Below are positions 3,024 through 17,915 of a DNA stretch of 64,000 nucleotides, piece after piece (the stretch's first letter is position 1; every line of letters begins with the position of its first letter). The position numbers were made by a program, and so were the translations under genes. This DNA comes from Bacteroidetes bacterium RIFCSPLOWO2_12_FULL_37_12 (GTDB lineage Bacteria; Bacteroidota; Bacteroidia; 2-12-FULL-37-12). The stretch is from NCBI GenBank assembly GCA_001769655.1, contig MEPC01000016.1, forward strand, positions 62,001 to 126,000. The letters are read 5' to 3'. The notes below the pieces were generated by a model that was not told where the DNA came from, did not search any database, and saw only the letters and a list, made by a program, of their open reading frames with translations.

Positions 3024-4637
3024 TTACTGTTTAACTTTACGATTTCTTTGTTTTGAATATAAACCATACAAATGAGTGATAATGTAAGCAGTGTACAGAT
3101 AAAAAAAATGATTCGCAATTAAAAAATATCTTTCACTTGCATGGTTCAGATAATTTGATAAAAAAGGTGTTATATGATAGAGAATAAGCAGAATAGGGAA
3201 TAAAAGTAAAATGATTCTTTCATTCAACTTATTTTTATAAATTACAAGTGTTAAGATAAAACAAATAAAAAATGTATTCCAGATTATAAATGAAAAAGCT
3301 TTAAAAATATAACTAAGCAAATATTCATGCTGTGGGTAAAGAACCAGTAGTTGTACATTCGCAAGGTTTGAGTGTACAACAAGTGCGTAGAAGTTTATAA
3401 AAGGAGCAATGCTATACCGAATCGGTCTTTCATGTATAAGATGCGAAGTCAACCGGTTAAAACAATTTATTATTGAATCCTCTCTTCTGATTATTTCATT
3501 TCGTACTGAGAGTTTGTGTGACATTGGAGTATGAATGGTTCTGTAAACCCGTGTTTTTTTTATTGAATTAAAAAATTGCAACAATGAGTCAGCATGATAA
3601 AGTTCTATTACCCAGTCAGCTAATTTTAACTTTTCCCTAAGGAATAAAACATGAGAAGAATCTGAAGAAATGAAATTGGTAGTTGAATGTTCGGAAAATG
3701 GTTTATATTGTTCTATATAGGTTAATAATTGATCGGGTATCAATCGTTGGCCAATGGACATTAACCATTCTTCAGTAGCAAAATAATAAAGGGATTTTCC
3801 GTCTGGTGATTTATGCGTTGTAAATTCTTCAAACAAAATGTACTCACCGTAAACCTTATGGTTTCTATTTGCCCAAATCGCAATCATCAAAAAGGCAGGA
3901 ATAAATAAAAATAACAGATTAGTTATTTTAGTTAAGATTAAATTTTTAAAGGTATCAATTCTGAAAAACAATTCAGAAAGTAAAAGAACGATGAGTAGCA
4001 ATACCGTTACAGGTTTAAGTAATATACAAATACCTACTATAGTTCCAGTCAAAATATTATGAAGGTTTCTGTTCATTTTATGAAAACTTAGATAAAATGC
4101 TATAGTTAAAGTAACAAAGAAGCAAGAAATAGATTCAGGTAATATATAGTTTGCAAAAACAGACGAATAAGGAATAAGGGAATAAAGAGATGCAGCAATA
4201 AATCCCGTTACATTTCGTTGAAATAGTTTTTTACTTATAGCGTAGAGAAAAAATACCACACTACTGTCTAATATTAATTGAAACAGAACAACTACCCATA
4301 AATAATATTTCTCTCCAAATAATATGTAATTTATGCTAAGGAACAAAGGGTATCCGGGGGTTTTTCTTATTAGCCCGATAGGGTAATTTTTATGAGCACT
4401 CCAAATATTATATTTAAAATAATTAGTAACGAAAGCAGTATACATGGTAGCATCGTCACGTAGAAATTCAGAACCAATCTGATCAGTTGTACCTTTCCAT
4501 GGAAGTTTTAGATTTGCTTCTCTTTCTGCAAAAAATAAAACTATACGAAGAATAAGGGCAAAAAAGAAAATTAAAAATAAGATTTTTCTATTTGAAAATA
4601 GATTAAAAAAATTGTTCAAGTTTTTCATTGGGTACAA
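3024..4637 (-). CDS. GT-C type membrane glycosyltransferase (PMT/ArnT-like)
   Basis: 537 residues with an N-terminal membrane segment at about 19-37, an acidic loop (RDDATMY, residues 60-66) and the RKTPGYPLFL motif at 91-100. Many further hydrophobic segments follow and the tail is basic. The acidic loop plus the PGYP motif are typical of GT39-like transferases that use polyprenyl-phosphate sugars in the periplasm. The 5' end overlaps the FkbM methyltransferase gene by 35 bp; a second Met three codons in would shorten the overlap. It is the last gene of a probable three-gene minus-strand unit (GT2, FkbM, GT-C). Substrate unknown. Confidence 0.75.
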   Translation of the reverse strand: MYPMKNLNNFFNLFSNRKILFLIFFFALILRIVLFFAEREANLKLPWKGTTDQIGSEFLRDDATMYTAFVTNYFKYNIWSAHKNYPIGLIRKTPGYPLFLSINYILFGEKYYLWVVVLFQLILDSSVVFFLYAISKKLFQRNVTGFIAASLYSLIPYSSVFANYILPESISCFFVTLTIAFYLSFHKMNRNLHNILTGTIVGICILLKPVTVLLLIVLLLSELFFRIDTFKNLILTKITNLLFLFIPAFLMIAIWANRNHKVYGEYILFEEFTTHKSPDGKSLYYFATEEWLMSIGQRLIPDQLLTYIEQYKPFSEHSTTNFISSDSSHVLFLREKLKLADWVIELYHADSLLQFFNSIKKTRVYRTIHTPMSHKLSVRNEIIRREDSIINCFNRLTSHLIHERPIRYSIAPFINFYALVVHSNLANVQLLVLYPQHEYLLSYIFKAFSFIIWNTFFICFILTLVIYKNKLNERIILLLFPILLILYHITPFLSNYLNHASERYFLIANHFFYLYTAYIITHLYGLYSKQRNRKVKQ

Positions 4638-5427
4638 AAAAGCAGTTTCCTGAAAAAGAGGTTATGGAAGGAACAAATTTAAGACGAGAACCTTCAGAAT
4701 TTTGAACTGCGCCAAATGTATAGTTTAATTTTCTAATATATTGTTCAAATTCATTAAGCGTATATTCAAATCTCTCAAAATGTTCAGGCGATATTTCACA
4801 AAGAATTAAGGGTCTAAACTGGTTAATTGATTTTTCTGCACCTTTGAGAGCGAGAAATTCAGCCCCTTCAATATCACATTTAATGAAAGTAAGATTCTTT
4901 AGATTAGTTAATAAGTTGTCAAGAATTACAATTTTGCAAATACTGGTTTTATATTTTCCCTCATTAAACTCATGAAAACCTTGTTTCATATAAGCAAGAC
5001 CTGGGTCCCTTGCTCCAAAACGTTGCAACGGTTCTATAAAAGTAACAAATTGTTCGTTATCCGAACAACCTAGGTTATGGAGATATACATTATCAAGTTT
5101 TAAGTGCTTAATAATTTTTTCCAGTATCTTAAATGTTGCAAGAATTGGTTCAAATGCATAAACGGAACCATTTTTTACAATCTTTGATAAGTGATATACA
5201 TATTGTCCAAAATTGCTTCCAATATCAACTACTTCGTCTGTTTCCTGTAAATAGAACTTAAGAAAACCCATTTCCAGTTTCTCTTCATAGGCATCCTTTT
5301 TAATATCTGCAAGCTTTGCTTTAAATAAAAAATATTCATAGGCGCTATCTCCTAACAAATAAAAAATTAACCTTTTTAATGACCTTCTGATGATATCATC
5401 AGGATTTGAATTTAAATGAAATAACAT
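4603..5427 (-). CDS. FkbM family methyltransferase
   Basis: 274 residues. The SAM-binding motif I is VVDIGSNFGQ (66-75), followed by an acidic motif II (AFEP, 91-94) and the family-typical FIKCDIEGAE (181-190). FkbM-type enzymes O-methylate hydroxyls on sugars or polyketides; in this setting a capsule or O-antigen sugar is the likely substrate. The N-terminal 60 residues are a helical extension common in polysaccharide-locus members. The 3' end overlaps the following GT-C gene by 35 bp, which suggests translational coupling. The GT2 gene lies 100 bp upstream on the same strand. Confidence 0.88.
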   Translation of the reverse strand: MLFHLNSNPDDIIRRSLKRLIFYLLGDSAYEYFLFKAKLADIKKDAYEEKLEMGFLKFYLQETDEVVDIGSNFGQYVYHLSKIVKNGSVYAFEPILATFKILEKIIKHLKLDNVYLHNLGCSDNEQFVTFIEPLQRFGARDPGLAYMKQGFHEFNEGKYKTSICKIVILDNLLTNLKNLTFIKCDIEGAEFLALKGAEKSINQFRPLILCEISPEHFERFEYTLNEFEQYIRKLNYTFGAVQNSEGSRLKFVPSITSFSGNCFFVPNEKLEQFF

Positions 5428-5527
5428 TTCAATAAAATTTCTATTTTCTTACTATAAAATTATTTCAAGAATGAATGTGTAGTTAAGGTGCAATTGCACT
5501 TCTTTTTTAATATTTGGAAATTGAAAA

Positions 5528-6265
5528 TTAAATTTTTTCTAAAATTTTAACAATAAATTTATTTATTTTAAATCGCATAGAAAAAATTAATATGATCATC
5601 TTTATTCCAAGAAAGAATGCTTTTTTTACATCTCCGGTTACCGAGCTGCTCCCTACTCTTTTTTTATAATTTATAGGAATTTGAACTGATCTTATTTTTA
5701 ATAAATATCCTAAAATCATCATTTCGGGTCCAAAGAAATTAGAATTTACGCTGAAATAGGGTTCTATTTCTTTAAGTGCCTTTTTGGTAATTGCTCTGAA
5801 AGTACATCCTACATCTGTGAGAGAATTAGTATTAAACAGAACTACTATCATTTTTGCTGTAAACCAGTTACCCCATTTTAATAAAAAACCCATGTTTGCA
5901 TCTCTCCAGATAAAATTTTTTGCAGTTCTTGATCCATAAACAATAGAAACATCATCAATATAGGAAAGAAATTTCAACATATCAGAAGCTAGAAAAGTAT
6001 CATCCGGTTCACAAACAACAATAATATCACCCGAAGCTTCAGAAAAACCCCTCCTTATGGCTGCCCCATAACCCTGTTTTAATTCAAAAATTTCCTTTGC
6101 ACTGGTTTTTCGTATTTCTTCACTGGTACCCTCAACGGCATTATTGTTAATTGCAATTATTTCATCTATTAAACCCAGTGCCTCAAAATTATTGATTACT
6201 TCCTTTATGGATTCTCTTTCATTATATGTGGGTAATAACAAACTGATTTTAAGGTTTCGGTACAT
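5528..6265 (-). CDS. Glycosyltransferase family 2 protein (DPM1/DPG-synthase-like)
   Basis: 245 residues from the chosen start. The N-terminus ISLLLPTYNERE is the usual GT2 nucleotide-binding start, and VCEPDDTF holds the acidic metal-binding site. The length and the hydrophobic, basic C-terminus fit enzymes that transfer a hexose to polyprenyl phosphate. Such a product would be the donor for the GT-C transferases nearby; this link is inference. An upstream Met at 6301 would add 12 hydrophobic residues, but a TATATTTG -7 box (6278-6285) lies between the two Mets, so 6265 was chosen. First gene of a minus-strand unit with FkbM and GT-C. Confidence 0.85.
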   Translation of the reverse strand: MYRNLKISLLLPTYNERESIKEVINNFEALGLIDEIIAINNNAVEGTSEEIRKTSAKEIFELKQGYGAAIRRGFSEASGDIIVVCEPDDTFLASDMLKFLSYIDDVSIVYGSRTAKNFIWRDANMGFLLKWGNWFTAKMIVVLFNTNSLTDVGCTFRAITKKALKEIEPYFSVNSNFFGPEMMILGYLLKIRSVQIPINYKKRVGSSSVTGDVKKAFFLGIKMIILIFSMRFKINKFIVKILEKI

Positions 6266-6277
6266 AATTATAAATGC

Positions 6278-6285
6278 CAAATATA
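6278..6285 (-). promoter_or_regulatory. Bacteroidota -7 box (TATATTTG) for the GT2 gene
   Basis: On the minus strand the sequence reads TATATTTGGC, a match to TAnnTTTG. The start codon at 6265 follows after 12 bp, leaving a very short leader. No convincing -33 TTG was found at the usual spacing. Confidence 0.5.
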
Positions 6286-6326
6286 CAACATTTGACTTCA
6301 AAGGAGAAAAAAATTAATAATTTAAA

Positions 6327-7345: not shown

Positions 7346-10300
7346 CTATGTATTTTGGGTATAAATTTCTGTAATTCTATCAACCCATTTATCCTGTGAA
7401 AACTGCTCTCTGAAGATTTTAAGATAGTTGTACATTTCTTCAAAAAGAGAACGGTTTTTTAGTAAAGTTTCTAAGTAATCACAAAAATTTAATAAATCGT
7501 TTGTTTTAGACAAGAAACCATTTTTCCCATGTTTAATTACCTCTTTTACCCCCATTACATTAAATCCAATACACGGTAGACCACAAGCCATGGCCTCTAA
7601 TATTACAAGGGGATGGGTTTCAAGAATTGCTGGATGCACGTATAAATCGTTTTCTCTTAGAATGTTTTCAGGATTCTCGGTTAATCCAAATAACGTAATC
7701 TTTTTTTCAAGATTATTCAGTACTATCTCCTTTTCAATTTCTTCAAAAAGCTCTCCTTGACCTATAATGGTAAGATGAAAATCAATATTTCTTTTCAGGA
7801 GTTCTTTAGCCATACTTATAAGAAAAATTTGATTTTTTCTTGCATGCATTCTTCCAATATTAACCAAACGGAATGGCTTATGCAATTCTGTAAATTGTTT
7901 TATATGGAATCGTTTTAAATCAACAGCATTATAAAGTTTTATTAGTTTCCCGATAGGAGGATTAAGGTTTTCTTTGATAAAAAAATGATTTTCATCTGAA
8001 ATGCTAATAAACGTATTACTGCAATTAATATAATTTTTCTGAATTCTGGATTTTACAATGCTGTTTGCTATACATGTTTTATTTAAAATTCCTTTATAAT
8101 TTAAATTATCAAATAAAAAATGATTATTATGAAAATGGCTTACATATTTTATTCTTGGGAAAACAAAAAAACGAGTTATAATTTCTGCTTCAACAAGATG
8201 AGAATGGATAATATCCGGTTGCCAATCTTTCACAAAATTAATGAAGTGAAATAGATTAACTTTACTTCTCTTTAATATAAAATGATTAAGTTCGGAAGGA
8301 CAAACAAAAACATCTAAATCTTTGCTCAGTGATTGAAATTCATTAATAGGTTTGAAGATTACTATACAACATTTGAATCCGGGTCGTTTATTCAACTCAA
8401 GAGCAAGAGTAAGGGCAACTTTTTCTGCTCCTGCCATTTCAAGAGTAGGTACTATCTGAGCAACGCGTATTACATTATCAGATGAAACTATTTCAGTTTG
8501 GTTTTTTAGGTTTTTATTTACAGTAATTGTATTGTTTTGTGTTTGCAACAACGGTTTATTTAAATCCATCCATTTGTGCAAAACATATAAAGCCCATAAC
8601 TTGTTTGAATGATCCACTCCATTTTGATGTTCATTCATTATTTTTTCAACAAATGTTAAATTTAATCCAGGAAAAAAATTTCTACTATCAAGAATGACTT
8701 CTTTAGCGTGGTTTCTTAATTCTTCTCTGAACCATTTTTCAATAGGAATGCTAAATCCCCATTTATCCCTGTAAATAGTCCCAAGTGGTAAATATTTTTC
8801 AGCAATTTTTTTACTTATATACTTTAAGTTACCATTATGTAAAATTTGATTTTTCTTCAAGGTAGCAACGTATGACATTAAATCCTTATCTAGAAAAGGT
8901 AAACGCACCTCCAATGAATTATACATAGAAGCCCTGTCAACTTTTACTAAATAATCATTTATTAACCTATTTTTAATAATTGAATATTGAATTCTGCTAA
9001 AGTCATCTTTACATAAACCCCATGATTCTGTAAAAACTAGTAAATGTTCAAATTCAAGAGCACCTAACATTTCAGAGTTTTGTGAAAAAAGATTCTTCAT
9101 TTCTTCATCATCAAAGCCCATCTGCCTGAACAAAACATTTACTTTAGCATACAATGGATTACTTAATAACTTAGTTAATAATTTAAATCTCCGGGAGATA
9201 ATTACTTTTGATAATAATCTGAAAAAAGGTGATGAAAACGAAAGTTTTAATAATTTTTCCAGATAAAAAATTACCTTATAGGTTGAATAACCGCCAAACA
9301 ATTCATCCCCACCATCTCCTGATAATACTGTTTTAACCGTCTTGGAAGCGAAATGAGAAACATAATATGTCGGTATCATAGATGAATCTGCAAATGGTTC
9401 TCCGAATTCCTCAATTAATCTATCAATAATATTAATATCAGATGGAGTAATAATTATTTCGTGGTGCTCAGTATTATATTTTTTGGCTATAATTGAAGCA
9501 TATTCTAATTCACTGTATGGCTTATAAGTAAAACCAACAGAAAAGGTCTTAATGGGTTTGGGTGAATTCAAAGATGCCATTGCAGTAACTAAACCCGAAT
9601 CAACCCCTCCGCTAAGAAAAATACCAAGAGTTACATCCGCAATTAACCTTTTTTTAACAGCATTATTTAACAAATAATCCGAATGGTTTATGATTTCTTT
9701 TAAATTATGCTTTGTATTGTGTGTAAAATTTAATTGCCAGTAACATTTTTTTTCAAAACCGTTATTAGAAAAAATATAATAACAAGCAGCTTCAACTTTT
9801 TCTATATTTTTGAATACTGAATGAGAACGAGGCGTTGTTAATTCCTGAAAATAATACCCTAAAGAATAATAATTAAGCGAAAGATTTCCTGGGTAAACGT
9901 GGAAGGAACGTATGTCAGAGCTAAAGGCAAGTTGATTCCCTTTACGATAATAATATAACGGCTTCTTGCCAAACCGATCTCTTGCGAGGATTAATTTATT
10001 TTCTGAAATATCATAAAGTACAAAAGCAAACATGCCATCCATAATATCTAAGGTTTTTTCCAGTCCCCATGCTTCATAAGCATTAATAATTACTTCAGTA
10101 TCGCAATTACTTTTAAATGAATATCCTTCTTTAAGGAGTTCATCTCGCAATTCAATAAAATTGAAGATTTCACCATTGTAATTTATGAGGGTTCTGCCGC
10201 TCTGGCTCAGCATAGGTTGGTTTCCGGCATCCGTCAAGTCAATAATTTTTAACCGGCGGTGAGCAAAAGATAAAAAAGCATTATTATACTGTTTATTTAA

Positions 10301-10414
10301 GTAACCCTCATGATCAGGTCCCCGGTATTTGAGACATTCTGAAAATCTCTTCAGAGATTCTTCTGAAACCAAGAATCCCTCATTAAAACTGATAAGACCG
10401 GCAATACCGCACAT
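7346..10414 (-). CDS. Fusion of asparagine synthetase (AsnB-like) and GT4 glycosyltransferase
   Basis: 1022 residues in one frame. Residues 1-620 are a complete class B asparagine synthetase: Cys2 nucleophile after the initiator Met, RGPDHEG (31-37), NYNGEIFNF (78-86), RDRFGKKPLYY (145-155), the PP-loop SGGVDS (268-273) and SGDGGDELFGG (365-375). Residues about 645-1022 are a complete GT4 transferase: donor-domain GAEK (662-665), GRMHARKNQ (854-862) and the E-x7-E motif (E932, E940). A polar linker (about 623-645) joins them. AsnB-like proteins in polysaccharide clusters amidate uronic acids or similar sugars, so one chain might both amidate and transfer; that role is inference. The toxin-antitoxin remnant lies 30 bp upstream on the same strand. 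Confidence 0.88.
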   Translation of the reverse strand: MCGIAGLISFNEGFLVSEESLKRFSECLKYRGPDHEGYLNKQYNNAFLSFAHRRLKIIDLTDAGNQPMLSQSGRTLINYNGEIFNFIELRDELLKEGYSFKSNCDTEVIINAYEAWGLEKTLDIMDGMFAFVLYDISENKLILARDRFGKKPLYYYRKGNQLAFSSDIRSFHVYPGNLSLNYYSLGYYFQELTTPRSHSVFKNIEKVEAACYYIFSNNGFEKKCYWQLNFTHNTKHNLKEIINHSDYLLNNAVKKRLIADVTLGIFLSGGVDSGLVTAMASLNSPKPIKTFSVGFTYKPYSELEYASIIAKKYNTEHHEIIITPSDINIIDRLIEEFGEPFADSSMIPTYYVSHFASKTVKTVLSGDGGDELFGGYSTYKVIFYLEKLLKLSFSSPFFRLLSKVIISRRFKLLTKLLSNPLYAKVNVLFRQMGFDDEEMKNLFSQNSEMLGALEFEHLLVFTESWGLCKDDFSRIQYSIIKNRLINDYLVKVDRASMYNSLEVRLPFLDKDLMSYVATLKKNQILHNGNLKYISKKIAEKYLPLGTIYRDKWGFSIPIEKWFREELRNHAKEVILDSRNFFPGLNLTFVEKIMNEHQNGVDHSNKLWALYVLHKWMDLNKPLLQTQNNTITVNKNLKNQTEIVSSDNVIRVAQIVPTLEMAGAEKVALTLALELNKRPGFKCCIVIFKPINEFQSLSKDLDVFVCPSELNHFILKRSKVNLFHFINFVKDWQPDIIHSHLVEAEIITRFFVFPRIKYVSHFHNNHFLFDNLNYKGILNKTCIANSIVKSRIQKNYINCSNTFISISDENHFFIKENLNPPIGKLIKLYNAVDLKRFHIKQFTELHKPFRLVNIGRMHARKNQIFLISMAKELLKRNIDFHLTIIGQGELFEEIEKEIVLNNLEKKITLFGLTENPENILRENDLYVHPAILETHPLVILEAMACGLPCIGFNVMGVKEVIKHGKNGFLSKTNDLLNFCDYLETLLKNRSLFEEMYNYLKIFREQFSQDKWVDRITEIYTQNT

Positions 10415-10444: not shown

Positions 10445-11137
10445 TTATTTTATCACCCCAGCTTTCAGAATATGCTCCATCCCAACCCCCAAAGAATTAT
10501 CCCTCGCAAACAAAAAATCATCCGCAATAATCTCTAATTTTTCTTTCATTTCATTCAAATTGACCGGATTTTTTAGCCAGGATTTTCCTTCAAACCATTC
10601 TACCGGAAAAGTAGTGAATCGCATGGCAATATCCTGTTCATTCATAATTTGTTTCTCAAACGCCTGTTTATATATTTCTTTCCAATTAAAACTGTATTTT
10701 TCTGAGATGCTTATAATATCAAAAATATCTTTTGCCTCATCACGGCTTAGCATGGCAGTTAATTTATTGGACAGAATATTTCCGATATTATCAACTAAAA
10801 CATTTGAGGATGACCTATAAGGGTTACTACATCCTGTAACTCGTAGATTTTTTTGTAATCGGGTACGTACAAACTCATAATCGGTTTTTAGTGATTTAAA
10901 ACGTAATTTTTGAATGATTTCCTCAGTCAAAAGTTCATTAATTCCTTGAAGAGGTAAGATACTCATAATTGTAAACCATGGGTAACTCTCCAGCAACTTC
11001 CTGAACAATGTAGCTTCATTATAATGCCCCACCGTTCCTCTTGTTCCCTCCAGCACTTCCAGACATTCCTCAGTTGGAAAGTGGTAATCCCACATGATGC
11101 CTTTCATTAATTCTAATTTTTTTTCGCGGGGAAACAT
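10445..11137 (-). pseudogene. Chimeric remnant of an antitoxin-like gene and an AbiEii-type nucleotidyltransferase toxin
   Basis: 230-residue open frame. Residues 1-95 (WDYHF, LFRKLLESYPWFTI, KLRFKSL, YEFVRTRLQ) resemble a small conserved protein usually encoded upstream of AbiEii-type nucleotidyltransferases. Residues from about 110 (NILSNKLTAMLSRDEAKDIFDI) resemble the C-terminal half of DUF1814/AbiEii toxins. The N-terminal nucleotidyltransferase core (GGTSL and DLDLF type motifs) is missing. The simplest reading is an internal deletion that joined the two genes in frame around 10,800-10,860. Any remaining activity is doubtful, and the family match is from memory of motifs. Confidence 0.55.
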
Positions 11138-11308: not shown

Positions 11309-12334
11309 ATGGAAACCATCCTAATCACCGGCGCAGGCGGCTACATCGGTACCTACATGGTTGAACATTTTCTTTCAATCGGATACAAGGTCATTGCGCT
11401 TGACCGCTTCTTCTTTGGCAATACCCTGGATAACCTGAGTTTCAATAAAAAGTTGAAAATAGTTAAAAATGACATACGTTTATTGAATATAAATCATTTT
11501 AAAGGGGTTGACTCTGTAATTGACCTCGCCGCCATTTCAAATGATCCGGCTTCTGAGTTGTTCCCTTCCATCACACGTGATATAAATTATAAAGGGGCGG
11601 TTCATGTTGCCAAAATGGCTAAAAAAGCAGGAGTAAAAATATATGTTTTTTCTTCCTCCTGCAGTATGTATGGTGCAGGAAATGGTATTGTGAACGAAAA
11701 GTCACATTTAGCTCCCATTTCTACGTATGCAAAATGTAAAATAGCGGCTGAAAACGAAATCATCAAACTCTCAACTAAAAACTTTTGTGTCACTTCTATG
11801 AGGAATGCCACGGTTTATGGCGTTTCAAACCGCCGTATGCGGTTTGATCTGCTTATAAATGTCATGACATTGCATGCCTGGAAAAACAGAAAAATATTTG
11901 TGTTAGGTCAGGGTAAGCAGTGGAGACCGCTAATACATATTTATGATCTTGTAAACGCCTTCAGATTAATACTGGAAGAAAAGGAAGAAAGTAAAATAAA
12001 TGGTGAGATTTTTAACGTTGGGTCAAATGAACAAAATTTTCAGGTTGTCAATATTGCCAATTATTTTAGAAATTTTTTTCAGGATTTGGCTATTGAAGTA
12101 ACTCCGAGCGACCCTGATACCAGAAGTTATAGAGTCAATTTTGATAAAATAACAAAAACCCTTGGATTTACGGTATCAAAAACTATAGATGATGGGATTC
12201 TGGAAATTAAATCAGCTCTTGATAAAGGAATTATAACAGATTCCATTCAAACCCGTACTCTTGATTATTATAAATATTTAATTTCAGCAGATAAAATATT
12301 GTCGTCTGTAAAAATCAGTGGAAGATTGTTTTAA
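11309..12334 (+). CDS. NAD-dependent epimerase/dehydratase (extended SDR)
   Basis: 341 residues. The NAD-binding GAGGYIG motif is at 8-14, the active-site Ser region FSSSCSMYG at 114-122 and the catalytic YAKCK at 140-144. This is the pattern of NDP-sugar epimerases and dehydratases, which act on a nucleotide-sugar in the cytoplasm; the exact reaction cannot be told. The gene is on the plus strand, divergent from the AsnB-GT4 unit, and 298 bp upstream of an aminotransferase gene. Both may act on one amino-sugar precursor, but the palindrome cluster between them makes separate transcription possible. Confidence 0.85.
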   Translation: METILITGAGGYIGTYMVEHFLSIGYKVIALDRFFFGNTLDNLSFNKKLKIVKNDIRLLNINHFKGVDSVIDLAAISNDPASELFPSITRDINYKGAVHVAKMAKKAGVKIYVFSSSCSMYGAGNGIVNEKSHLAPISTYAKCKIAAENEIIKLSTKNFCVTSMRNATVYGVSNRRMRFDLLINVMTLHAWKNRKIFVLGQGKQWRPLIHIYDLVNAFRLILEEKEESKINGEIFNVGSNEQNFQVVNIANYFRNFFQDLAIEVTPSDPDTRSYRVNFDKITKTLGFTVSKTIDDGILEIKSALDKGIITDSIQTRTLDYYKYLISADKILSSVKISGRLF

Positions 12335-12371
12335 GAGGGCTTGTTTCATAAAAATAATAAAAACAAAACGA

Positions 12372-12576
12372 GTTCCGTAGGAATGACACATATTGTAACA
12401 ACGGACTTCAGTCCGTTGTTGTAACGTCTGACTTCAGACCCTTGAGTTCCGTAGGAACGATACATTTTTGAGGATTTGAATTGAACCGTGCCAACGGCAC
12501 TTTTGGACTGTAGCTCGGACGTACTTATGGATTGACTAAAGTCCATCCTTACAAAATGAAGGCGTGCCTACGGCAC
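12372..12576. repeat. Cluster of at least six mini-palindromes
   Basis: The 298-bp gap contains GTTCC-GTA-GGAAT (12372-12384), an 11-bp perfect inverted repeat with a 2-bp centre (12397-12407 and 12410-12420), GTCTGACTTCAGAC (12426-12439), GTTCCGTAGGAAC (12446-12458), GTGCCAACGGCAC (12488-12500), a GGACT/AGTCC-type palindrome near 12528-12546 and GTGCCTACGGCAC (12564-12576). Each could fold into a small hairpin. The first two recur in the same order at 24382-24428. No gene is seen in this gap. Confidence 0.75.
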
Positions 12577-12632
12577 TTTTTATCAATTTAAAAATTCTTT
12601 TCACACGATTAGCGGTAGAACCATAATTTGAA

Positions 12633-13763
12633 ATGCAAAAAATTGAATTTTTCAAACATAATCTATCCCAGGAAGACAAAGAAGAATGTCTGAAGGTTCT
12701 GGATTCTGTTTTTCTTACTACCGGCGCCTCTGTGAAGGATTTTGAAAACAAATTAGCAAAATATATGGAAATGCCTTTCGCTGTTGGAGTAACTTCCTGT
12801 ACAGCCGCTTTGTTCCTTGCCTTAAAGTATTTAGAAGTAGGGGAGGGAGACGAGGTTATAACATCCCCGATGTCGTTTATAGCATCTGCAAATTCAATTG
12901 AATTCTGCAATGCAAAACCAGTTTTTGCAGACGTAAATCCCCAAACCGGCATTATTGATGCCGAAGCTGTTGAAAAGGCAATCACCAAAAAAACCAAAGC
13001 AATCATGCCCGTTCATCTTTATGGGCAAATGTGCGATATGAAGCAATTACGATCAATCGCTGATAAAAATAATCTTAATATTATTGAAGATGCCTGTCAT
13101 AATCTGGAAGGAAGACGTGACGGATACAAATCGGGTCAATTAGGTGATTTGGCTTGTTATAGTTTTTATGCAACCAAAAATTTAACATCCGGAGAGGGTG
13201 GTGCAATCACTTGCCACAATAAAGAAACAGCGGACTGGCTTGCAAAAGCACGACTTCATGGGATGAGCAAAAGCGCCGCTGACCGTTATACTTCCAACTA
13301 TCAACATTACGATATGGAATTTTTAGGATATAAATTTAACATGAGTAATATTGAAGCCGCGCTTCTGGTTCATCAATTAGACAGGATAGAATTCTATTTA
13401 CAGAAAAAAGAAAGGATTGCAAAAATGTATGATGAGGGGTTCCTCAACAATCCTTTTATCAGTAAGCCGGATGTATTAGATAATACAAAACATGCCCGGT
13501 TGTTATATACTATCTGGGTTAATCCTTCAAAACGCGATGAATACCTTCATAAAATACAGGAAAAGGGAATTGGCGTAGCAGTGAATTTCCGTGCAATTCA
13601 TCTGATGAGTTACTACAAAAATAAATATGGCTTCAAAAGCAGCGACTTTCCAAATAGCGAAAAAATAGGTGATTCCACGATAACACTGCCATTTTATGCG
13701 GCACTTGGTGATTCGGAGGTAGAATATGTGATTGAGGAAGTGAATGAAATTGTGAAATCCTAG
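12633..13763 (+). CDS. DegT/DnrJ/EryC1/StrS family PLP aminotransferase
   Basis: 376 residues, full length for the family. It shows the PLP-phosphate region TSCTAAL (54-60), the cofactor-stacking IEDACHNLEG (151-160) and the Schiff-base lysine K182 in YATKNLTSGEGG. These enzymes transaminate keto-sugars on nucleotide carriers to make amino sugars for polysaccharides. With the upstream epimerase it could form a keto-sugar/amino-sugar pair, which is inference. The start follows the palindrome cluster; a near-match to a -7 box (ATAATTTG) directly precedes it but has wrong spacing. The next gene, a GT4, is 168 bp downstream. Confidence 0.92.
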   Translation: MQKIEFFKHNLSQEDKEECLKVLDSVFLTTGASVKDFENKLAKYMEMPFAVGVTSCTAALFLALKYLEVGEGDEVITSPMSFIASANSIEFCNAKPVFADVNPQTGIIDAEAVEKAITKKTKAIMPVHLYGQMCDMKQLRSIADKNNLNIIEDACHNLEGRRDGYKSGQLGDLACYSFYATKNLTSGEGGAITCHNKETADWLAKARLHGMSKSAADRYTSNYQHYDMEFLGYKFNMSNIEAALLVHQLDRIEFYLQKKERIAKMYDEGFLNNPFISKPDVLDNTKHARLLYTIWVNPSKRDEYLHKIQEKGIGVAVNFRAIHLMSYYKNKYGFKSSDFPNSEKIGDSTITLPFYAALGDSEVEYVIEEVNEIVKS

Positions 13764-13888
13764 ATATAAAATCATCAATCTTAAATTTTCTTATGATAAT
13801 ATGTTTTTGAGGGTTCATTTGTGCCTTAACTATTTTGCAAGCAAATAATGAAAAAAACACATTTCGGAAAGTATTGAAATATTATTAT

Positions 13889-13896
13889 TACTTTTG
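13889..13896 (+). promoter_or_regulatory. Bacteroidota -7 box (TACTTTTG) for the GT4 gene
   Basis: TACTTTTGCA matches TAnnTTTG, 35 bp upstream of the start codon at 13932 and probably the start of a four-gene transcript (GT4, 2-epimerase, PIG-L, LpxD-like). Confidence 0.45.
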
Positions 13897-13931
13897 CATT
13901 AACTGTAATCGAAATTAATTATTGTTTCTCA

Positions 13932-15143
13932 ATGAAAATTGCTTATTTGTGCTGTGAAAAACTTGATCTCCCCAATGCAATTCCTATTCATGTTTCAGAA
14001 ATTTGCGAAGGTTTAACAAAAAAAGGGCATCTGGTTCACTTATATTCTCCTTATCGAAATACATTTACTTTCTTTGTTAACTATTCGGTATTTACAGGGT
14101 TGCTTTCTACTCATTCTCTGTTTTGCCTGATAGAAAATATTTGGTTTTATAAAATACTGAGAAAAAAAATAAAAGCTTACGACCTTATTTACTGCAGGTT
14201 TTACAGACGGTTTTGGGCTCCACTATTACTTTCAAAGGTATCAAAAATTCCTTTAGTCAATGAAGTTAATGAAATCTATCGTTTTGAAAGAGAACTTGAG
14301 AAAAATGTCTTGACTAATTATTCTTGGTACAAACGGTTACTTAATTTTATTATAATGGATAGGATTTCAAATCTGATAGAGAGATTTATTCATAATGCTG
14401 AAAATTTATCCATATCGGTTACTCCCGAAATTAGTAATGATCTTATTAATCACTTTAAGTTAAAACCAAAAATAGTTAAAACCATTTCCAATGGAGTAAA
14501 CGAGCATCTTTTCTTTCCAATGGATAAGAATCTGTGTCGTAAAGAACTTGGACTTGAAAGTGATATTTTTTACTTGGGTTTTATCGGACATATTGAATAT
14601 TATCAAGGAATAGATAAATTAATAAAATCCACGAAAATTTTTTTTCAAAACACACAAAAAACTAAGTTAATCATCATTGGAAGTGGTCCATACACAAATG
14701 ATGTAAAAAAACTCATTTCTGAATTGGGTTTGAATGACAGAATATTAATGGTTCCTGCTGTAAAAGCGGAAGAATCTCCTAAATGGATCAATTGCTTTGA
14801 TTTAGGAATTTTACTTAAAATACCTATTGATTCGGGAATTTCCCCATTAAAACTTTATGCCATGCTCGCTTGCAATATCCCTGTTCTTGCATCAGATATT
14901 CCGTCTTTCAGAATTCTTTCCGAAAATGGAGTGGGATATTTAGTTACTTACCCTGAGAATGAAGGGGGGTGCCAGAAAGTTGCTGAAAAAATGTTAGAAA
15001 TATATAAAATGGAAACTTTAAACCCTGATAAATCTCAAAAGAGACGTGATTACGTTATAAAAAATTTCACATGGTCAGATACAGTCCAAAAAACCGAAAA
15101 ATATATGAAGCAGATAATTTCTGAATCAACTCATATTACTTAA
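13932..15143 (+). CDS. Glycosyltransferase family 4 protein
   Basis: 403 residues with the two-domain GT-B layout. The acceptor domain starts MKIAYLCCEKLDLPNAIPIHV; the donor domain has ISNGVNEHLFF, GFIGHIEYYQGIDKL and SPLKLYAMLACNIPVLASD. In most GT4 proteins of this subtype the last motif reads KLYEY, so the usual second Glu of E-x7-E appears replaced by Ala here; activity may be altered or the acidic role displaced. It leads a tightly packed unit: the 2-epimerase gene begins 8 bp after its stop. Likely cytoplasmic, acting on a lipid-linked oligosaccharide. Confidence 0.85.
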   Translation: MKIAYLCCEKLDLPNAIPIHVSEICEGLTKKGHLVHLYSPYRNTFTFFVNYSVFTGLLSTHSLFCLIENIWFYKILRKKIKAYDLIYCRFYRRFWAPLLLSKVSKIPLVNEVNEIYRFERELEKNVLTNYSWYKRLLNFIIMDRISNLIERFIHNAENLSISVTPEISNDLINHFKLKPKIVKTISNGVNEHLFFPMDKNLCRKELGLESDIFYLGFIGHIEYYQGIDKLIKSTKIFFQNTQKTKLIIIGSGPYTNDVKKLISELGLNDRILMVPAVKAEESPKWINCFDLGILLKIPIDSGISPLKLYAMLACNIPVLASDIPSFRILSENGVGYLVTYPENEGGCQKVAEKMLEIYKMETLNPDKSQKRRDYVIKNFTWSDTVQKTEKYMKQIISESTHIT

Positions 15144-15150
15144 TCAACAT

Positions 15151-16305
15151 ATGATAAAAATGATCAACATAGTTGGCGCAAGACCACAAATAATTAAAGC
15201 CGCGGCAATCAGTCGTGCAATAAAAAATTTTTTTTCAGACCGTATTACGGAAGTAATTGTACATACGGGGCAACATTATGATTCAAATATGACGACTGTT
15301 TTTTTTAACGAACTCCTTATCCCAAAAGAAAAAATCAATCTAAAAGTGGGTTCTGGTAGTCATGCTGTTCAAACGGCATCTATGATGATAAAAATTGCGG
15401 ATGTTTTGATGAATGAAAAACCCACATGTGTCTTAGTGTATGGTGATACAAATTCAACTCTTGCCGCGGCTTTGGTTGCCTCAAAAATTCCAGTTCCGAT
15501 TATTCATGTTGAAGCTGGTCTGCGAAACTTTAAAAAGAAATATCCGGAGGAAATTAATCGTATTGTTTGCGATCATTTGTCAACCTTACTTTTTGTTCCC
15601 ACCATCCATGGGTGTAGGAATTTAACAAATGAAGGTTTTAAAATTTCAGATTGGGGAAGACAAAGCAATTTTGATCAGCCGAGTATATTTTTTTGCGGAG
15701 ATATTATGTATGACAACAGTATTTTTTTTCTTGAACAGGCAAAAAAAAAATCAATTATTTTAGAGCGGTTGGGTATAAAAAATCAAAAATTCATTCTTGC
15801 AACAATCCATAGACCGCACAATACAGATTATGTAAAAAACCTATCAGCCATTTTTTCAGCATTTGATTTTATTTCAAAAAAGGATGATATAAAATTAATT
15901 ATACCTTTACACCCCAGAACCCTTCATGTTCTTCATAATTCCGGTAATGATATTGTGCAAAATATTATAGAAAGGAACAAGTATCTAAAAATAACTGACT
16001 CCGTCTCTTATCTTGATATGATTCGTTTGGAAGAAAGCGCTGAGCTCATTTTTACTGACTCGGGAGGTGTTCAGAAAGAAGCTTACTTTTATAATAAACC
16101 GGTAGTTCTTTTAATGGAAGAAACACCATGGGTAGAACTAGTAGAGACCGGTTGTGCAATGATTGGTGGTTCTGATTCAGAAAAAATAATTAATGCTTAT
16201 TATACCCAAAAAAACAAGAGAAATATAGTATTTGAAAAAATATATGGAGATGGACACGCGGCTGAGTTTATTTGTAAAAAAATTATTGAAACCTTTGATG
16301 TTTAA
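15151..16305 (+). CDS. wecB: UDP-N-acetylglucosamine 2-epimerase (non-hydrolysing)
   Basis: 384 residues, usual length. Motifs are GARPQIIKAAAI near the N-terminus, VIVHTGQHYD, VYGDTNSTLAAALVA, HVEAGLRN, PEEINR, ATIHRPHNTD and TDSGGVQKEA. The family interconverts UDP-GlcNAc and UDP-ManNAc in the cytoplasm. GARPQ in place of the more common GTRPE is a small change at the UDP site. The gene has close neighbours on both sides: GT4 ends 8 bp before and PIG-L starts 6 bp after, so it is almost certainly co-transcribed. Its product could feed the deacetylase and N-acyltransferase that follow. Confidence 0.92.
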   Translation: MIKMINIVGARPQIIKAAAISRAIKNFFSDRITEVIVHTGQHYDSNMTTVFFNELLIPKEKINLKVGSGSHAVQTASMMIKIADVLMNEKPTCVLVYGDTNSTLAAALVASKIPVPIIHVEAGLRNFKKKYPEEINRIVCDHLSTLLFVPTIHGCRNLTNEGFKISDWGRQSNFDQPSIFFCGDIMYDNSIFFLEQAKKKSIILERLGIKNQKFILATIHRPHNTDYVKNLSAIFSAFDFISKKDDIKLIIPLHPRTLHVLHNSGNDIVQNIIERNKYLKITDSVSYLDMIRLEESAELIFTDSGGVQKEAYFYNKPVVLLMEETPWVELVETGCAMIGGSDSEKIINAYYTQKNKRNIVFEKIYGDGHAAEFICKKIIETFDV

Positions 16306-16311
16306 AATAAT

Positions 16312-16974
16312 TTGAATATGCTAAATACTCTAAATTCAAAAAAAAATAAAATTAATGCGCTTATACTCGCCCCACATACTGATGATGGTGAGCTAGGCTG
16401 TGGAGGAACAATTGCAAAATTAGTTTCCGAAGGGCATAGTGTTTATTATGTTGCTTTTTCGGCATGTTATCAATCTGTTTTAAAAGAATTTAAAGAGGAT
16501 ATTTTAATTACAGAAGTCAAATCAGCAACATCTATATTGGGGATTCGCCCTGAAAATTTAATATTGTTTGATTTTGAAGTTCGTACTTTCAGTTTTAGAA
16601 GACAGGAAATATTGGATCAACTTATTAAAATTCGTGAGGAAATACATCCGGATTTAGTACTCATGCCATCCACTAACGATATGCATCAGGATCACATTAC
16701 TATTGCGCAGGAAGGATTAAGGGCTTTTAAATTTAATAGTATTATGTCATACGAAATGCCCTGGAATAATCTGAGTTTTAACACATCCTCTTTTGTTTAT
16801 CTCAAAGAAGAACATATGAAGAAGAAGGTAAAGGCACTTTCTGAATATAAGTCACAAGCGCACAAAAGCTACGCAAATGAGGAATTTATACGTTCTCTTG
16901 CCAGAACAAGGGGAGTTCAAATTGGAACTAAATACGCCGAAACATTTGATATTTTAAGATGGATTATTAATTAA
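16312..16974 (+). CDS. PIG-L family N-deacetylase
   Basis: 220 residues. The zinc-binding start is APHTDDGELGCGGT, a variant of the usual HPDDE motif with Thr for Pro and Gly for Glu; the His and two Asp are kept. The downstream STNDMHQDH motif supplies the second His. PIG-L/LmbE proteins remove acetyl groups from GlcNAc-type sugars. The loss of the Glu next to the DD pair is notable, since the general base is usually the first Asp of that motif. An alternative start two codons later is possible. It lies between WecB and an LpxD-like N-acyltransferase, which suggests removal of one N-acyl group and addition of another. Confidence 0.85.
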   Translation: MNMLNTLNSKKNKINALILAPHTDDGELGCGGTIAKLVSEGHSVYYVAFSACYQSVLKEFKEDILITEVKSATSILGIRPENLILFDFEVRTFSFRRQEILDQLIKIREEIHPDLVLMPSTNDMHQDHITIAQEGLRAFKFNSIMSYEMPWNNLSFNTSSFVYLKEEHMKKKVKALSEYKSQAHKSYANEEFIRSLARTRGVQIGTKYAETFDILRWIIN

Positions 16975-16976
16975 TA

Positions 16977-17915
16977 ATGAAAAGCATAAAAGACATAATT
17001 TCTAATTTTTCATACAAAGAGTTTATTGGAGATGAAAACACAATGATAAGGGATCTTATCCCTCTCAATATTGCAAATAATAGAAATGACGTCCTTTTTT
17101 GGTGCAACGATTTGAATCTTCAAAAATTAAGTGCAATCAGTAATGGTTGCATTATTTGTTCAGAAAAAATATATGAAATTGGATTCAACCCTGGATGCCA
17201 ATATATAATTGTTGAGCATCCAAAATTATTTTATTTACGCATTATGAAAATGTGGAAGGTTGAAAATGAAAAATATGGAATTCATCCCACAGCAATTATC
17301 CATCCTGAGGCAATATTTTCAGAGGAAGTATATATTGGACCTTATTGTATTATTGGAAAATGCAAGATTGCAAATCAGGTACATATTCAAGCCCACACGG
17401 TAATACATGACAATGTAACTATTGGAAACAGAGTTAGAATTCATGATCATGCCAATATAGGCAGTGCCGGTTTTGGGTTTGTTAGAAATGAAAACGGGAA
17501 ATTAGAAAAGATGCCCGACCTTGGTAGTGTTTTAATTGGGGATGATGTAGAACTGTTCCCATACGTGAATATTGACTTAGGAACGCTGAGTGTAACAAAA
17601 GTAGGTAGGGGAACAAAAATTGACAGGTATGTTCACATTGCGCACAACTGTCAAATTGGTGAGGATTGTGTCATTACAGCCCAAGTAGTTTTTTGCGGTG
17701 GAAGCTCTATTGGAAATTCTTCATGGGTTGGGATAGGATCCATTATTAAAGAAAAAGTTGTATTGGGTCAAAATGTAATTATTGGTTTGGGGGCTGTAGT
17801 TACAAAAAATATTCCGGATAACGCTACATGGATTGGCTCACCTGCTAGACCTTTAACAGAGTTCAAATTAATTTCCGATTATTTAAAAAAACAATTAATA
17901 ACTCAAAGCAAGTGA
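16977..17915 (+). CDS. LpxD-like N-acyltransferase (left-handed beta-helix)
   Basis: 312 residues. Residues 1-100 resemble the LpxD N-terminal domain, and from about 103 hexapeptide repeats (IHPEAI, YIGPYC, TIGNRV, GRGTKI) form a left-handed beta-helix. HIAHNCQIGEDC carries the His that is catalytic in LpxD. Lipid A biosynthesis LpxD normally sits near lpxC or lpxA; here it follows a PIG-L gene with 2 bp between stop and start. A role in N-acylating a UDP-amino sugar for the surface polysaccharide is therefore more likely than lipid A synthesis, though that is inferred from context. Confidence 0.8.
   Translation: MKSIKDIISNFSYKEFIGDENTMIRDLIPLNIANNRNDVLFWCNDLNLQKLSAISNGCIICSEKIYEIGFNPGCQYIIVEHPKLFYLRIMKMWKVENEKYGIHPTAIIHPEAIFSEEVYIGPYCIIGKCKIANQVHIQAHTVIHDNVTIGNRVRIHDHANIGSAGFGFVRNENGKLEKMPDLGSVLIGDDVELFPYVNIDLGTLSVTKVGRGTKIDRYVHIAHNCQIGEDCVITAQVVFCGGSSIGNSSWVGIGSIIKEKVVLGQNVIIGLGAVVTKNIPDNATWIGSPARPLTEFKLISDYLKKQLITQSK

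Follow-up and report, generated by a model that had tools for sequence, protein, structure and literature searches.

A single gene in the draft genome of Bacteroidetes bacterium RIFCSPLOWO2_12_FULL_37_12 encodes an AsnB-family glutamine amidotransferase joined to a GT4 glycosyltransferase (7346..10414, minus strand; coordinates refer to the window, the whole stretch of 64,000 nucleotides that was analysed). We consider it fairly probable that this gene arose by read-through fusion of neighbouring genes for a WbpS-like amidotransferase and a GT4 that serve one surface-glycan pathway, in which a uronate is probably amidated. Judged from its sequence, the fused protein most likely forms an amidated surface-glycan sugar, incorporates one, or does both. 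With one case known so far, the fusion is a variant of a known neighbour relation, and no new enzyme class is established by it.

Domain architecture of the fused protein

The gene reads as 1,022 codons from an ATG start with zero internal stops, which bears out the original prediction of one uninterrupted frame. An AsnB-family amidotransferase occupies residues 1 to ~621, and is followed by a linker of ~27 residues and by the GT4 glycosyltransferase at residues 649-1022. Pfam profiles placed GATase_7 at residues 52-171 (141 bits), Asn_synthase at 247-616 (272 bits, covering positions 4-353 of the 354 in the profile), Glyco_transf_4 at 662-835 (31 bits) and Glycos_transf_1 at 838-997 (115 bits); because all four scores exceed the curated cut-offs, the matches are not due to chance. 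As far as the assembly goes, the fusion is a true in-frame joining of two complete domains, and both halves look usable from their sequences. The source genome is a 3.9-Mb draft in 43 contigs, 97.9% complete and 1.3% contaminated, with the fused gene on contig C16.

The class-II glutaminase core (residues 1-171; 9902..10414, minus strand), identified with Pfam and mapped on E. coli AsnB (1ct9), keeps C1, R49, N74-G75-E76 and D98 in mature numbering, where C1 is the Cys2 nucleophile of the fused protein. The adenylating, amide-forming Asn_synthase domain (residues 247-616; 8567..9676, minus strand) carries the PP-loop SGGVDS at 9596-9613, which in the same mapping conforms to the S-G-G-x-D-S of E. 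coli AsnB. The N-terminal half resembles the E. coli enzyme in fold as well as in these residues, but it is ~60 aa longer and departs from it in the acceptor-site segments: VTTIRA, the aspartate-binding segment of that enzyme, is replaced by FADSS (EPFADSS versus the housekeeping VTTxRA), and SGEGSDE by SGDGGDE (housekeeping motif SGEGxDE). Compared with E. coli AsnB, the fused protein lacks the signature of an aspartate-specific asparagine synthetase, namely the aspartate-binding segment and SGEGxDE; sequence comparison indicated that FADSS and SGDGGDE also occur in AsnB-like proteins from glycan loci. The source genome has a separate 555-aa housekeeping-type AsnB on contig C42, which keeps both E. 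coli acceptor segments, and three other AsnB-like proteins on contigs C13 and C20.

The best NCBIfam match of this half was TIGR03108 (eps_aminotran_1), the XrtA/PEP-CTERM amidotransferase family found in exosortase EPS loci, at 483.9 bits against a curated cut-off of 816.9, and by this score it is a relative, not a member, of that family. The cut-off of the more general asparagine synthase profile TIGR01536 was passed (425 vs 267 bits), and sizeable sub-threshold scores were obtained with other amidotransferase families. Of the full AsnB that had been proposed, the complete domain, Cys2 and SGGVDS hold, but the name asparagine synthetase seems too strong because the best score is of the TIGR03108/WbpS type, the acceptor site is unlike that of E. 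coli AsnB and a housekeeping-type AsnB is encoded separately; we use AsnB-family amidotransferase instead. Membership in an XrtA/PEP-CTERM system was ruled out by the scores below cut-off and by the lack of an exosortase, for which a whole-genome profile search with PF09721 found no match.

The nearest experimental precedent is PGN_1234 (WbpS) of P. gingivalis, which comes from Bacteroidota like the source genome and whose deletion leaves the linking sugar of A-LPS without its uronamide form; PGN_1234, P. aeruginosa WbpS and E. coli O121 WbqG group with TIGR03108 (PMC7468200). The fused half shares with these proteins an AsnB-like architecture of ~620 aa, a best score to TIGR03108 and a setting in a surface-glycan locus, and with PGN_1234 the phylum. 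They are, however, separate proteins, and the fused half reaches 484 bits against the 817-bit cut-off in a genome without an exosortase. By analogy, a sugar carboxylate would be a sensible amidation substrate.

The GT4 half (residues 649-1022; 7349..8470, minus strand) is 28-32% identical to 13 unfused relatives, and in the alignment with them it retains the catalytic H, K and E-x7-E. Both of the motifs originally reported for a full GT4, GRMHARKNQ and E-x7-E, were found, the latter as E932-x7-E940 at 7595-7621. The model of residues 646-1022 alone is a complete GT-B fold (pLDDT 91, pTM 0.86), to which the closest structures are those of BshA (6n1x, 2jjm; TM-score ~0.78). The GT-B fold and the K and E-x7-E motifs are shared with BshA and with TIGR03088 (stp2), but identity to BshA is ~20% and the scores of the fused GT4 fall well short of the cut-offs for TIGR03088 and BshA; TIGR03088, an XrtA-system GT4, was its best NCBIfam match, at 98 bits. 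The fused GT4 differs from other GT4 proteins in being joined to an AsnB-family half and in having HP where the EPFGL motif has FG. These two substitutions (F934H, G935P), together with G661A, depart from positions that are invariant among the 13 compared relatives, and because of them glycosyltransferase activity is not certain. Low pLDDT over residues 680-749 in the full-length model was traced to an alignment artefact, in which ~100 residues of each GT4 row had been misaligned into the AsnB half.

Genomic context

Glycan genes span ~1.6 to 25.5 kb of the window and also the contig upstream of it (L074), and include GT2, GT4 and GT9 glycosyltransferases, FkbM and other methyltransferases, epimerases, an acyltransferase, a DegT aminotransferase, a UDP-GlcNAc 2-epimerase and a PIG-L deacetylase. 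Pfam matches identified a PMT-like glycosyltransferase, an FkbM methyltransferase and a GT2 at 3024..6301 on the minus strand, the strand of the fused gene. The sugar-modification genes at 11309..17915 are on the plus strand and encode, from Pfam and NCBIfam matches, an NAD-dependent epimerase, a DegT aminotransferase, a GT4, a UDP-GlcNAc 2-epimerase, a PIG-L deacetylase and a hexapeptide transferase. Because the strands are mixed, the fused gene does not belong to one long operon. No UDP-sugar 6-dehydrogenase was found at the window's locus, and three are encoded elsewhere in the source genome. This genome (G000) also encodes ~150 Por_Secre_tail (T9SS) domains, and since it is such a heavy T9SS user, an amidated linking sugar like that of A-LPS is conceivable in this organism.

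The open reading frame 30 bp upstream of the fused gene (10445..11137, minus strand; 230 aa) had no Pfam or NCBIfam match and only weak PADLOC matches to AbiEii nucleotidyltransferases (best E 4e-7). This weakly AbiEii-like gene sits alone within the glycan locus and is probably unrelated to the glycan pathway.

Separate counterparts in other genomes

The expectation that the two enzymes are normally encoded as separate neighbours in surface-glycan loci was confirmed in loci of the class and on plasmids. In the class, a same-strand GT4 directly follows AsnB at 8 of the 13 closest AsnB loci, in the order of the fusion and with gaps of -52 to +289 bp. The closest relatives of the GT4 half, at loci L057, L058 and L063, precede an AsnB-like gene by 3-5 bp. 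On plasmids of Gloeothece, Isosphaeraceae EP7, Solidesulfovibrio and Deinococcus, which represent four other phyla, asnB adjoins glycosyltransferase genes, and the psc1 cluster of Rubrivivax has the order GT-asnB-GT (PMC3684757). The asnB-GT4 pairs in exopolysaccharide loci of Gloeothece, Isosphaeraceae EP7, Deinococcus, Rubrivivax psc1 and four Bacteroidota genomes (G192, G219, G032 and G211) combine the same enzyme types, in most cases with the order and strand of the fusion, but they are two genes, and for the most part the GT4 encoded beside asnB is not closely related to the fused one. In G211, asnB and GT4 abut (0 bp) in the same frame with one TAG between them (L033, 9684-11543 with 8592-9683; L014), a natural state one base from fusion.

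The same domain order was sought, as the original prediction had proposed, in partly overlapping samples, two from the class (295 and 395 genomes), one from the phylum (395) and two that took in whole families (36 and 46), about 780 genomes in total, as well as in a plasmid collection. No second fusion was found in the class, phylum or two-family samples or among the plasmids; in the larger samples scoring covered the top-ranking 2-3 candidates of each genome, and a distant fusion could be missed. Among the genomes compared, the source genome is the sole representative of its family and order, so that separate genes in close relatives, originally named together with the lack of a second fusion as evidence against it, were sought outside the order; unfused AsnB relatives in the sampled genomes were up to 43% identical. 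Because no other sampled genome carries the fusion, conservation offers no argument that its function has been selected. A scan of viral contigs gave no match, a scan of genome contigs gave only one distant AsnB, and no paper describing such a fusion was found in the literature searched.

Several candidates were rejected. Long frames at AsnB homologues in G086 (1003), G104 (844), G204 (731) and G746 (1013) are ordinary AsnB genes, whose frames are open upstream by chance and which have no second Pfam domain or have a normal ATG in place. Contig C55 of G211, which matched both halves in one stretch, holds the two genes divided by the in-frame TAG, and three plasmid records that covered both halves hold separate genes.

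Origin of the junction

Codon reading and the full-length model place the linker at residues ~622-648 (8471..8551, minus strand), within the interval of 8,450-8,560 where the junction had been correctly predicted; a stop codon at this point had been named as evidence against a fusion, and the assembled sequence has none. The GC content is 24% over residues 622-647, where 60-codon windows of the gene are mostly at 23-37%, and pLDDT in the full-length model is <50 over residues 627-663, the last part of which falls where the beginning of the GT4 half was misaligned. The nearest unfused AsnB relatives end 5-7 residues past the Trp aligned with W615, equivalent to residues 620-622, and codon 649 (8468..8470, minus strand), where 8 of the 13 unfused GT4 relatives have their start Met in the alignment, is ATA (Ile). 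Because the AsnB relatives stop at 620-622 and the ATG of most GT4 relatives is here ATA, both a stop and a start are gone. It seems probable that the stop codon of the amidotransferase and the start codon of the GT4 were lost, and that former intergenic DNA would now be read as the linker.

It is very unlikely that the fusion is instead an assembly or sequencing artefact, in which a base error in the draft erased a real stop between two adjacent genes. Such an error could mimic a fusion where a pair like that of G211 is separated by one TAG, several codons around residues 618-624 would become stops by a change of one base, and the fusion is known from one genome only. However, one error would not give back two ordinary genes: from residue 616 to residue 660 the frame contains neither ATG nor GTG, TTG 622/623 are the only start-like codons before the GT4 core, and since one wrong base still leaves the GT4 without its usual start, a single sequencing error is unlikely to explain the fusion. 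An indel that restored an ATG would, as we read the sequence, leave the amidotransferase with a ~40-residue tail that is absent from its relatives. The other two frames are rich in stops across the junction, and this, like the completeness and low contamination of the genome, argues against an artefact.

Predicted function and alternative explanations

In the favoured explanation, the N-terminal glutaminase would free ammonia from glutamine, the synthetase domain would adenylate a carboxylate, most likely C6 of a uronic acid linked to a nucleotide or a lipid, and the ammonia would turn the adenylated carboxylate into an amide. The C-terminal GT4 would move a sugar, perhaps the same uronamide or an adjoining residue, to the growing lipid-linked glycan, with the two active sites most likely acting as tethered yet independent modules. 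We infer that a uronic acid is probably the substrate and that both reactions may fall within one pathway step, perhaps with the physical coupling originally suggested or some channelling. Several points weigh against this explanation: the TIGR03108 and TIGR03088 scores are far below cut-off, the locus has no UDP-sugar 6-dehydrogenase, no orthologous fusion was found to give the function of the fused state comparative support, and three GT4 positions are changed. The fusion provides a "Rosetta-stone" link in support of the idea, so far backed by little direct evidence, that AsnB-like amidotransferases and the GT4s paired with them in surface-glycan loci across several phyla share a pathway, and it offers a single protein for assays of uronamide formation and of whether amidation comes before or after transfer.

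How far the joining itself matters is a separate question. We give an even chance to the fusion being real yet functionally neutral, a mere tethering without coupling and a short-lived accident in a single lineage; there is overlap here with the favoured explanation, which makes no claim about coupling. No other fusion turned up in the sampled genomes of the class and phylum, the linker resembles former intergenic DNA in its GC content and low model confidence, and the domain order is the common operon order, all of which fit neutrality; the catalytic motifs, by contrast, are intact in both domains, which suggests use but is silent on coupling. It is improbable that the protein is a bifunctional enzyme coupling uronate amidation to glycosyl transfer, whether by channelling or by forming the amide within the GT4 site on the donor or acceptor itself, and that it represents a Bacteroidota clade not yet sampled. 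Similarly doubtful is a role for the N-terminal half on another carboxylate (aspartate, an amino-acid-decorated sugar or a peptide), after the models of asparagine synthetase, N-acetylglutaminylglutamine amide synthase or the lasso/lactam cyclases, in which case the uronamide reading would be wrong. The TIGR01536 match, the sub-threshold scores to other families and the lack of a uronate dehydrogenase at the locus are consistent with such a role, but the replacement of VTTIRA and SGEGxDE by segments found in glycan-locus AsnB-like proteins, the true AsnB-type paralogue in the same genome and the position of the fused gene within a glycan locus argue against it.

Variation among related loci

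In L057 and L058, GT4 lies directly upstream of a second AsnB-like subfamily, with the PP-loop SSGIDS rather than SGGxDS and with SGEGADE; these loci also hold an AsnB of the SGDGGDE type ~8 kb away. The AsnB-like gene of L063 (2121-3884, minus strand) lies between two GT4 genes, with gaps of -4 and 4 bp, and encodes a 587-aa protein whose N-terminus is without the usual MCGI start, making it possibly a glutaminase-degenerate member. In G240 the GT4 and AsnB genes are convergent (L022, 4535-5659 and 5644-7500), with tails that overlap by 16 bp.
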